A program made the position numbers and the translations under genes. From Candidatus Niyogibacteria bacterium RIFCSPLOWO2_12_FULL_41_13 (lineage in GTDB: Bacteria; Patescibacteriota; Minisyncoccia; 2-12-FULL-41-13), in the NCBI GenBank assembly GCA_001821615.1, contig MHMS01000002.1, forward strand, positions 1,102 to 34,889: a stretch of 33,788 nucleotides of DNA, read 5' to 3'. Numbering within the stretch: the stretch's first letter is position 1; every line of letters starts with the position of its first letter. The notes below the pieces were generated by a model. The model saw only the letters and a program-made list of their open reading frames with translations, was not told the DNA's origin and searched no databases. Of this stretch, positions 1 to 3,541 are shown one piece after another.

Positions 1-15
1 TAGCAAAATCATAAT

Positions 16-246
16 ATGAACAAAAAATTTTTAATTGCGGCGTTTATTTTAGTTGTCGCGGCGCTCGCTATGACGGCGTATTTTATCCTGCGATCAAAGC
101 CCAAAATTCCGCCAAAGCCGGTTGAAAAAGCAAAGCCGATAATTGAAATCAATCCAATTTCAAACCCGCTTGAAAAAAAACCGGAATTAAATCCGATTGA
201 AAAAATAAATCCTTTCAAAGATATTTACAAAAACCCTTTTGAATAA
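16..246 (+). CDS. small hypothetical protein with N-terminal hydrophobic anchor and Pro/Lys-rich tail
   Basis: 76-aa ORF; hydrophobic segment FLIAAFILVVAALAMTAYFIL then low-complexity PKIPPKPVEKAKP. Confidence 0.5.
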   Translation: MNKKFLIAAFILVVAALAMTAYFILRSKPKIPPKPVEKAKPIIEINPISNPLEKKPELNPIEKINPFKDIYKNPFE

Positions 247-1510
247 TACAAATAAAACAATAATTTATTTTTTTATCGTCCTGATGGCAACTTTTTTGGC
301 TTTGGGGATTGTCTTAGCTTCTTCAAAAGAAGATATTGTTTTTCCCGTTGTTGAACTTGGCGGATGCGAAAATAAAGAGCAATGCAAGATGTATTGCGAC
401 AATCCCGATAACATCAAGCAATGCGTCGGTTTTGCCGAAAAACATAATTTACTGGGCAAAGACGAAATTGAAAAAGCGAAAAGATTCATGGAAGCCGGAA
501 ATAAGGGACCGGGCGAATGCAATTCGCAAAAATCCTGCGAAGAATATTGCAATAATATAAATAACATGGACGAATGTCTGGCGTTTGCCGAAACGCACGG
601 AATGATGGATGATGAAGAACTTGAAGAAGCGAAAAAAGTCCAGTCGGCGCTGAAAAGGGGAGCAAAACTTCCGGGAGGATGCGAAAACAAAAATGAATGC
701 GAACAATACTGCGAGAACTCCGAGCATATGGAAGAATGCATCGCTTTTGCGGAAACAGCGGGATTCATTCCGCCGGACGAACTTGAAGACGCCAAAAAAG
801 CGCTCTCGGCGATAAAAAGGGGGATTAAACCGCCGCCTTGCCGGGGCAAAAAAGAATGCGATAATTATTGCGGAGAACCGCAGAATTTTGAATCTTGCCT
901 TGTTTTTGCCGAGGCGGCCGGCTTTATCAGCGAAGAAGAAGCGGAAATGGCGCGAAAAACCGGCGGCAGGGGCCCTGGCGACTGTCGGGGCAAAGACGAG
1001 TGCGATGAATATTGCCAAAGACCGGAAAATGTAAAAGAGTGCGTTGATTTTGTGGAAACCGCACAAACCAGCGGACCGGGCGGCTGTAAATCCAAAAAAG
1101 AATGCGAAGAATTTTGTCAAAAACCGGAAAATACGGAAACCTGCCTGGATTTTGCCGCGAAATCCGGAATGATGAGTCCGGAAGAAAGCGAAAAAATTAA
1201 AAATATGATGAGACAAGCTCAACCAATTAAAAGACCTGACCGAGAACGAGAACATGACCGACAAGGAGAATTTAAACAAATGACACCGCCCGAATTTGAA
1301 TCCGAATTTAAACTTGAAAGAGAAAAAATATTTGAATCTGAAAAAGAAAAAATAATGGAGCAGATTCCGCCCGAATTTCGTGAAATAATTCCGCGAGAAA
1401 TGCCCGACAAAATGCCGCCGCCCCCGTCTTCCGAACCAATGCCGCAAATTCTGCCTTTTAAAAAATCCATTGACAACGCCAAAGCCCTTATTTTGGAAAT
1501 TTTGCGTTAA
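239..1510 (+). CDS. exported Cys-rich repeat protein (six C-x5-C-x3-C-x8-C repeats)
   Basis: N-terminal hydrophobic segment, then six tandem units like PGGCENKNECEQYCENSEHMEECIAFAETAGF. ORF opens with TTG at 239; ATG at 284 is an alternative start. Confidence 0.8.
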   Translation: MNNTNKTIIYFFIVLMATFLALGIVLASSKEDIVFPVVELGGCENKEQCKMYCDNPDNIKQCVGFAEKHNLLGKDEIEKAKRFMEAGNKGPGECNSQKSCEEYCNNINNMDECLAFAETHGMMDDEELEEAKKVQSALKRGAKLPGGCENKNECEQYCENSEHMEECIAFAETAGFIPPDELEDAKKALSAIKRGIKPPPCRGKKECDNYCGEPQNFESCLVFAEAAGFISEEEAEMARKTGGRGPGDCRGKDECDEYCQRPENVKECVDFVETAQTSGPGGCKSKKECEEFCQKPENTETCLDFAAKSGMMSPEESEKIKNMMRQAQPIKRPDREREHDRQGEFKQMTPPEFESEFKLEREKIFESEKEKIMEQIPPEFREIIPREMPDKMPPPPSSEPMPQILPFKKSIDNAKALILEILR

Positions 1511-1533
1511 TTCGCTATTATATCCCAATAATA

Positions 1534-2187
1534 ATGAATAAAATCGTTTATTGGCTATTGATTACCGGCCTTGCCATCGCTGGCGTTGTTATCGGCGTAA
1601 AAAGCTTAAACAACAGCAGGCCGCAGAATAATTCAAGTTATTCTCAAGCGGCGGCTATTTCTCCCAACGATTGGATAAAAGGAAAAAAAGAAGCGAAAAA
1701 CACATTAATTGAATACAGCGATTTCCAATGTCCGGCTTGCGGACTTTATTATCCGCTTTTAAAACAATTAAGCCGGGAGTTTGGCGAAAATATGATGTTT
1801 GTTTACAGGCATTTTCCTTTACAACAGCACAAAAACGCAAAACCCGCGGCTTACGCGAGCGAGGCGGCCGGAAAACAGGACAAATTCTGGGAAATGCACG
1901 ATTTAATTTTTGAAAATCAGGACGAGTGGTCGGCAAAAAGCGACGACAAGGCAAAAGAAATTTTCATAAAATACGCAGGCTCTCTCAATCTTAATATTGA
2001 AAAATTCAAAAACGATTTAAACTTGGAAGAAATAAATAAAAAAGTGGAAAGCGATTTCCAAAGCGGGCTCAAGCTCAAAGTTAACGCCACGCCAACATTC
2101 TTTTTAAACGGCGAAAAACTCCAAAATCCGCGAAGTTATGATGAACTTAAAAACATTATCCAGCAAACAATCCAAACAGCTTCTTGA
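1534..2187 (+). CDS. DsbA-family thiol:disulfide oxidoreductase (thioredoxin fold), membrane anchored
   Basis: N-terminal TM; YSDFQCPACGLYYPLLKQL (CPAC active site); VNATPTFFLNGEKL cis-Pro loop. Confidence 0.88.
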   Translation: MNKIVYWLLITGLAIAGVVIGVKSLNNSRPQNNSSYSQAAAISPNDWIKGKKEAKNTLIEYSDFQCPACGLYYPLLKQLSREFGENMMFVYRHFPLQQHKNAKPAAYASEAAGKQDKFWEMHDLIFENQDEWSAKSDDKAKEIFIKYAGSLNLNIEKFKNDLNLEEINKKVESDFQSGLKLKVNATPTFFLNGEKLQNPRSYDELKNIIQQTIQTAS

Positions 2188-2602
2188 TTGGCTGATTGCC
2201 GCTTTCCTTGGCTTTGGATTTACCGGCTTGATTGACTCCGCGTACCTTACCGCAAAATATTATTCCGGCTCTCCTCTTGAATGCCAGATTTTAATCGGAT
2301 GCGATATTGTCGCCACAAGCCAATACGCGGAAATATTTCATGCGCCGGTCGCTCTCTTGGGAGTGATTTATTATTTATTGATTGTTTCGCTTATCGCCCT
2401 CTATGTCAAAACAAAAAAAGAGAATGTTTTAATCGGCGTTTCTTTTTTAACAATTTTCGGCTTCTTGGCTTCCCTCTGGTTTTTGTATCTCCAATTGTTC
2501 GTCATTAAAGCGCTTTGTTTTTATTGCATCGTCTCGGCCGCCGCTTCAACGGCTTTATTCATTTCAGGAATTATTTTTATCAGAAAATTTAACGCGCGAT
2601 AA
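2138..2602 (+). CDS. VKOR family integral membrane protein
   Basis: Multi-TM protein with paired cysteines (LECQILIGCDIVATSQYAEIFHAPVALLGVIYY; IKALCFYCIVSAAAS) typical of bacterial VKOR; overlaps the DsbA-like gene. Confidence 0.85.
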   Translation: MMNLKTLSSKQSKQLLDWLIAAFLGFGFTGLIDSAYLTAKYYSGSPLECQILIGCDIVATSQYAEIFHAPVALLGVIYYLLIVSLIALYVKTKKENVLIGVSFLTIFGFLASLWFLYLQLFVIKALCFYCIVSAAASTALFISGIIFIRKFNAR

Positions 2603-2629: not shown

Positions 2630-3127
2630 ATGAACCCCGAATCAATGCTAAAAGGCCGGATGGCCGAGACATTGTTTGAGGAACTAATGCGCCAATCTGG
2701 CAATATCGTGTACAGATTCGGCTATGAGGCGATAGCGCAGAATTTAACCCAATTGGAAGAAAAATTTGACCGCTACAGCGAAGTGGGGGAACGAATCCGC
2801 GCTATCCCTGATTTTATTGTAATCGATCAAAAGGGTAAACCCGACTTTGTGGAGGTAAAATTTCGCTGGAAGCCGGAATTACACAGAGATGATTTCGAGA
2901 AACTTAAAAAGATTGATAAGTTGTGGAGCCCAAAGTTAATATTTGTTAATTGTTGGAAACAACCATATTTTCGCATATCCGAACCTCCTTATATTGATAA
3001 AGGAAAATTGCGTTTAAAACCGCTTCTTGCGGAAAATAATTGGAGAATCAACAGGGAAATTTACGATGAATACGAAAGATTGGTTTATAAGTATCTCACG
3101 CCTACATTAATTCCGTCTAAACGATAA
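2630..3127 (+). CDS. putative PD-(D/E)XK nuclease-like protein
   Basis: IPDFIVIDQKGKPDFVEVKFRWKP resembles the PD...(D/E)xK core; overall family not recognised. Confidence 0.5.
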   Translation: MNPESMLKGRMAETLFEELMRQSGNIVYRFGYEAIAQNLTQLEEKFDRYSEVGERIRAIPDFIVIDQKGKPDFVEVKFRWKPELHRDDFEKLKKIDKLWSPKLIFVNCWKQPYFRISEPPYIDKGKLRLKPLLAENNWRINREIYDEYERLVYKYLTPTLIPSKR

Positions 3128-3155: not shown

Positions 3156-3185
3156 TATCTCTAATTCGTGCGAATAGTAGAATAA
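3156..3185. promoter_or_regulatory. candidate operator copy A (30-bp repeat with palindrome ATTCGTGCGAAT)
   Basis: tatctctaattcgtgcgaatagtagaataa; 28/30 identical to 3512-3541. Confidence 0.55.
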
Positions 3186-3234: not shown

Positions 3235-3507
3235 ATGAACAAATATATGAAAAAAATGGAGAGAATTTTAAAAGCATTGGCTAACCAACGGCGGTTGGCG
3301 ATTCTAAAATACTTAAAAGAAAACAAAGAATCTCCGGTGGCGGAAATCGCGGAAGAAATTGATTTATCGTTTAAGGCCACTTCAAAACATCTTGGCGTTT
3401 TATCGGCGGCAGACATTGTTGAAAAAGAACAGCGAAGTTTACAAATGTTTTATCGTTTATCCGATAATCAACAACTGCCGGCAAAATATATTATCTCCCT
3501 TCTTTAA
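3235..3507 (+). CDS. ArsR-family HTH transcriptional regulator
   Basis: ERILKALANQRRLAILKYLKENKESPVAEIAEEIDLSFKATSKHLGVLSAADIVEKEQRSLQMFYRLS, typical ArsR winged HTH. Confidence 0.85.
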   Translation: MNKYMKKMERILKALANQRRLAILKYLKENKESPVAEIAEEIDLSFKATSKHLGVLSAADIVEKEQRSLQMFYRLSDNQQLPAKYIISLL

Positions 3508-3511
3508 TTTA

Positions 3512-3541
3512 TATCTCTAATTCGTACGAATGGTAGAATAA
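3512..3541. promoter_or_regulatory. candidate operator copy B (30-bp repeat with perfect palindrome ATTCGTACGAAT)
   Basis: tatctctaattcgtacgaatggtagaataa directly after the regulator stop codon. Confidence 0.55.

Follow-up and report, generated by a model that had tools for sequence, protein, structure and literature searches.

The cysteine-repeat protein encoded in the window (the whole 33,788-nucleotide stretch of DNA that was analysed) is encoded directly behind a small membrane protein whose tail carries Asn-Pro-Phe (NPF) motifs. The unit conserved across gene neighbourhoods is the NPF gene plus the repeat gene, rather than the neighbouring disulfide enzymes, and is best explained, with a probability of about 0.6, as a two-gene, disulfide-stabilised surface or adhesion module. 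This module is probably a surface structure of host-dependent Patescibacteria. Searches of curated family libraries do not recognise the NPF–Cys4 pair; no earlier description was found in the open literature, which is not proof of absence. DsbA–VKOR pairs in CPR bacteria, on the other hand, have been published before (PMC6744442).

In the source genome (562 kb, 95.7% complete, 26 contigs), the NPF and repeat genes share 8 nt, 23 nt separate the repeat gene from the DsbA-like gene, and the VKOR gene overlaps the DsbA-like gene by 50 nt (Table 1). The preliminary description spanned 239–2602 and left out the first gene, the conserved partner. Upstream of the module lie a DoxX-family membrane protein gene (window 1–14; contig C2 690–1115, L031; Pfam E 1.4e-7, partly N-masked), which ends one base 5′ of the NPF gene, and a TrkA_N gene. 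With DoxX upstream and DsbA and VKOR downstream, several redox-type membrane genes surround the module in this genome. On the 3′ side of VKOR, a 165-aa ORF (2630–3127) has sub-threshold VRR_NUC and Bax1 nuclease likeness. Farther on, the palindrome-like sites ATTCGTGCGAAT (3164–3175) and ATTCGTACGAAT (3520–3531), each within near-identical stretches of ~28 bases, stand either side of a small ArsR-type regulator gene (3235–3507) and look like operators of that gene.

Table 1. Features of the module and of the adjoining disulfide enzymes (window positions).
Feature	Position	Strand	Basis
Small membrane protein gene, 76 aa; conserved partner	16..246	+	Homologue upstream in 78/86 distinct repeat genes; alignment
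NPI/NPL/NPI/NPF/NPF motifs, C-terminus of small protein	151..240	+	76/78 homologues end ≤3 residues from NPF or NPL
Exported Cys-repeat protein gene, 423 aa, TTG start	239..1510	+	Sequence; homologues in 71/238 class genomes
Signal-peptide-like hydrophobic N-terminus of repeat protein	239..319	+	Sequence; equivalent in homologues, many with AxA-like ends
Cys4 unit 1 (C1–C4)	365..424	+	Exact pattern
Cys4 unit 2	518..577	+	Exact pattern
Cys4 unit 3; three helices by AlphaFold	680..739	+	Exact pattern, model
Cys4 unit 4	839..898	+	Exact pattern
Cys4 unit 5	983..1042	+	Exact pattern
Cys4 unit 6	1085..1144	+	Exact pattern
Low-complexity charged/Pro-rich tail, short hydrophobic segment at end	1222..1507	+	pLDDT, homologue C-termini
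Membrane-anchored DsbA-like oxidoreductase, CPAC; adjacency to repeat gene not conserved	1534..2187	+	Pfam Thioredoxin_4, DSBA
VKOR membrane protein, two Cys pairs (C-x6-C loop, CFYC); adjacency rare elsewhere	2138..2602	+	Pfam VKOR, adjacency survey

The six C-x5-C-x3-C-x8-C units that had been reported behind a hydrophobic N-terminus are all exact, with C1 at residues 43, 94, 148, 201, 249, and 283. The hydrophobic segment precedes the first unit, and all 24 cysteines of the protein fall inside the six units, whereas shuffled versions contain a mean of 0.002 such units and a maximum of one. AlphaFold models a single unit (unit 3) as three helices at a pLDDT of 82. The full-length model, built with two sequences in the alignment, is weak (pLDDT 61), and the pLDDT is mostly below 50 from residue 328 on, in the low-complexity tail. 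Foldseek finds no PDB fold match below E 1 for either the single unit or the full-length model, and a profile search of the PDB with the repeat family returns no significant match. No Pfam or NCBIfam family scores above its cut-off, the best Pfam match being AtDEF-like (23.9 bits against a cut-off of 25). PHROGs yield weak matches, none convincing, and plasmid and phage collections and viral contigs gave no match.

The unit resembles CHCH (twin CX9C) hairpins, such as complex I NDUFB7/B18, in being composed of small helices braced by cysteines, with nine-residue C1–C3 spacing. However, it lacks the twin CX9C pattern, has a third helix, and is tandemly repeated. CHCH chains in the PDB give the repeat profile only a non-significant match of E 0.04 and no fold match; identity with the CHCH twin CX9C motif was therefore rejected for a unit that reads C-x5-C-x3-C-x8-C.

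Homologues of the repeat protein occur in 30 of 93 genomes of the class, in 71 of 238 in a larger draw, and in a few genomes outside it; sampling the phylum evenly gave 9 of 287, source genome included. Most are 430–1040 aa long and share a signal-like N-terminus, a [FY]P[IV]xEL-GNC-like segment, tandem units, and a low-complexity tail. The unit consensus is GPGGC-x5-C-x2-[YF]C-x8-C-x2-FA-x3-G-[LF]-[IM]-S-x-EE, and all four cysteines are kept in 535 of the 537 units found by profile, with one of the two exceptions lying in a masked stretch. Many homologues have short hydrophobic C-termini like that of the window protein. A second cysteine motif, approximately CSYVGSPGSQNYDLCKQCFPDK, replaces this C-terminus in L047, L064, L177, L186, L190, L194, and L210.

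Five homologues of 895–1040 aa (L035, L038, L041, L045, and L062) carry a Laminin_G_3 domain, and Kazal-type protease-inhibitor matches are found in L035 (at the curated cut-off) and L041 (below it). Because homologues carry these domains, an extracellular, adhesive protein fits, and the earlier proposal of an exported or surface protein is borne out at the level of prediction by these domains and the signal-peptide-like N-termini. The likeness to LamG-domain adhesion and lectin proteins extends to these five homologues; in the window protein itself, unlike in LamG adhesins, Pfam finds no LamG domain. Large Cys-rich extracellular proteins with a proposed attachment role have been described in Peribacteria, where they average ~1,655 aa and have weak similarity to Myxococcus Cys-rich repeats (PMC4736985). 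The window protein is likewise exported, Cys-rich, and from a CPR lineage. The Peribacteria proteins are set apart by their description, as they are larger and the available portion of that report describes no NPF partner for them. If the library copy includes the NCBIfam model myxo_disulf_rpt, that model matches none of 32 repeat-family members.

The partner emerged from clustering the neighbours of repeat genes, which gave one recurrent family, encoded immediately 5′ of the repeat gene in the same orientation. Its member in the window is a protein with one N-terminal transmembrane helix and a Pro-rich tail bearing five NP[FIL] motifs, ending ...INPFKDIYKNPFE. With a profile built from 30 of these sequences, 79 of the 87 repeat genes listed have the partner directly upstream, or 78 of 86 distinct ones, since L073 and L198 are one locus listed twice. 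At loci outside profile building the count is 38 of 41. Of the remainder without a profile match, some are fragments, adjoin masked sequence, or fall at the edge of a contig, and in L077 a partner can be recognised by eye. The median gap between the two genes is 3 nt, and most partners are 75–110 aa long. In a rule-based test, such an ORF lies upstream of 73 of 84 repeat genes versus 2 of 685 other genes at the loci, both exceptions belonging to repeat-gene clusters. Strong genome-wide matches of the partner profile nearly always adjoin a repeat gene. The family has no Pfam match and no convincing match in NCBIfam or the PDB.

The pair also occurs outside the class within the same phylum (L074, L075, L076, L077, and L081). 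A MAG labelled Woesearchaeota has a full pair on a contig of 6.2 kb (L032), which could reflect transfer or a contamination or binning error. A draw over the phylum of that genome gave short Cys4 variants (L083 and L084) with no NPF gene upstream. The 273 genes that lie no more than two positions from the module include just three frequent Pfam families, formyltransferase (fmt), deformylase (def), and PCMT. These were rejected as conserved neighbours because their recurrence is confined to a single clade, and nearly all remaining families are seen once to three times. The flanking genes otherwise look random, and the module thus travels as two genes.

NPF density is 25.0 per 1000 aa in partners versus 0.098 in other ORFs, and in 76 of 78 distinct homologues the last NPF or NPL motif lies at or very near the C-terminus (Table 1). 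The number of NP motifs correlates weakly with that of Cys units (rho 0.32, p 0.005), which is not taken as evidence of stoichiometry. In eukaryotes, NPF is a ligand of EH-domain-type domains. From its membrane anchor and conserved short motif, the partner may dock the exported protein, or else a receptor that both share.

Instead of a surface anchor, the partner could be a cytosolic-facing or regulatory protein that acts in export or quality control. This would accord with the ambiguous charge around the helix (+0.90 on one side, +0.92 on the other) and with the C-terminal motif, which is very short and strongly conserved, as is typical of peptides that dock onto another protein. However, an N-in, C-out topology is what the short N-terminus and the acidic, Pro-rich tail fit. 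In addition, NPF or SPF stands just before the first cysteine in 13 of 78 repeat proteins, so that the motif is present in an exported chain too. The cytosolic-facing reading is rather unlikely.

The downstream genes had been described as a CPAC thioredoxin-fold protein followed by an overlapping VKOR, and Pfam agrees. The former (Thioredoxin_4 E 2.8e-29, DSBA E 5.4e-14) is a predicted DsbA/MdbA-like oxidoreductase, and the latter (VKOR E 1.3e-24; 87.2 bits versus a cut-off of 27.5) has both of its cysteine pairs in the sequence. MdbA/DsbA-like and VKOR genes (fam000318 and fam000898) are adjacent in 88 of 750 CPR genomes, and pilins have been proposed as substrates of the pair (PMC6744442). 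The window likewise sets a CxxC thioredoxin-fold protein beside VKOR. The NPF gene and the repeat protein, which the window has in addition, are not mentioned in the available portion of that report.

The preliminary description went further and proposed DsbA and VKOR as a candidate cassette dedicated to folding the repeat protein. As a conserved arrangement, this is not supported. Adjacency was surveyed at 76 class loci with 78 repeat genes and flanks of ~6 kb where the contig allows. VKOR is in range of the repeat gene at three loci, namely the window (L031), L206, and L208, the last two being from one family with VKOR divergently oriented, and a DsbA-like gene is in range in the window only. 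The cassette was accordingly rejected as a conserved arrangement, since the flanks lack VKOR at 73 of the 76 loci and a DsbA-like gene at 75. Some observations do speak for a dedicated role, including the tight array in the window, the divergently adjacent VKOR in G544 and G578, and, in G091, DsbB together with a gene for a CPHC thioredoxin-like protein at a distance of ~1.6 kb from the module. The three VKOR adjacencies within 1.5 kb also exceed the 0.4 expected (p 0.008, or 0.06 if two related genomes are counted once).

Genome-level co-occurrence of repeat and VKOR, which also speaks for a redox link, is positive in the larger sample. With no correction for shared ancestry throughout, VKOR is present in 38 of 71 repeat-positive genomes (54%) versus 47 of 167 repeat-negative ones (28%; odds ratio 2.9, p 3e-4), and VKOR or DsbB in 45 of 71 versus 62 of 167 (p 2e-4), whereas VKOR shows no such effect in the 93-genome sample (14/30 vs 24/63, p 0.5). 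Against dedication, VKOR is absent from 33 of the 71 repeat-positive genomes, and both VKOR and DsbB from 26, so that another oxidant would be needed there for disulfides. DsbA–VKOR pairs also occur without the repeat (8 of 18 genomes with the pair). Nearly every genome has a DsbA-like gene (83 of 93), and the co-occurrence of these genes therefore carries no signal. A fair statement is that relay and repeat have a mild functional association and form no dedicated conserved cassette; that these enzymes exist specifically for the repeat protein is improbable. Because the genome-level association with VKOR is positive, it is plausible that the relay helps in a general way.

Relatives with few intact units bear on the pairing of the cysteines. 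In three genomes (G015, G035, and G081, corresponding to L061, L060, and L068), the NPF gene is followed by a gene for a divergent Cys-containing protein of ~1,220 aa with one canonical Cys4 unit, the protein being incomplete in L060. On their sequences, these form a putative sister lineage of the module. The partner thus precedes even single-unit divergent proteins, and the pairing persists where most of the repeat is gone. Their degenerate units keep C3–C4 alone (L060 and L068) or C1–C2 alone (L061), and partial units are otherwise almost absent. This pairwise loss in three sequences hints at C1–C2 and C3–C4 pairing.

As the repeat protein is exported and its cysteines are conserved, disulfides are the best reading, and the earlier preference for disulfides over metal binding is favoured on the evidence to date, although the bonds themselves are inferred. 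Four near-invariant cysteines per unit would be compatible with a tetrahedral metal site as well, yet a zinc or iron-sulfur centre or metal buffer in each unit is improbable, given the oxidising setting implied by export and by LamG and Kazal relatives, the absence of a match to any metal-site family, and the loss of cysteines in pairs, as expected of disulfides, in a small sample.

The surface module may then be pictured as follows. The first gene would encode a small single-pass membrane protein with an outward-facing tail of repeated Asn-Pro-Phe/Leu motifs, and the second an exported protein in which six three-helix units, with two disulfides each, follow one another in tandem ahead of a disordered stalk. 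The repeat protein would be secreted and then oxidised outside the membrane to give a rigid, disulfide-rich rod, with DsbA–VKOR supplying disulfides as the general oxidative-folding pair of the cell. Through direct contact, the NPF-tailed partner may hold or assemble the repeat protein at the cell surface, where the module would serve adhesive contact with other cells or surfaces. Tentatively, and with less confidence than the module itself, NPF tails and Cys4 units could make up a lineage-wide, sortase-independent docking and assembly system of Patescibacteria, in which Asn-Pro-Phe hooks outside the cell bind Cys4 units or a shared receptor to yield a disulfide-hardened filament for host-cell attachment.

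An operon-like array in a single genome, here repeat–DsbA–VKOR, can mislead about partnership, the recurring neighbour being the omitted NPF gene. Little is known about the surface proteins behind the attachment of Patescibacteria to other cells and their dependence on them. A two-gene unit that is compact, easy to recognise, and present in ~30% of sampled class genomes and in other classes too is a concrete candidate for such a protein system.
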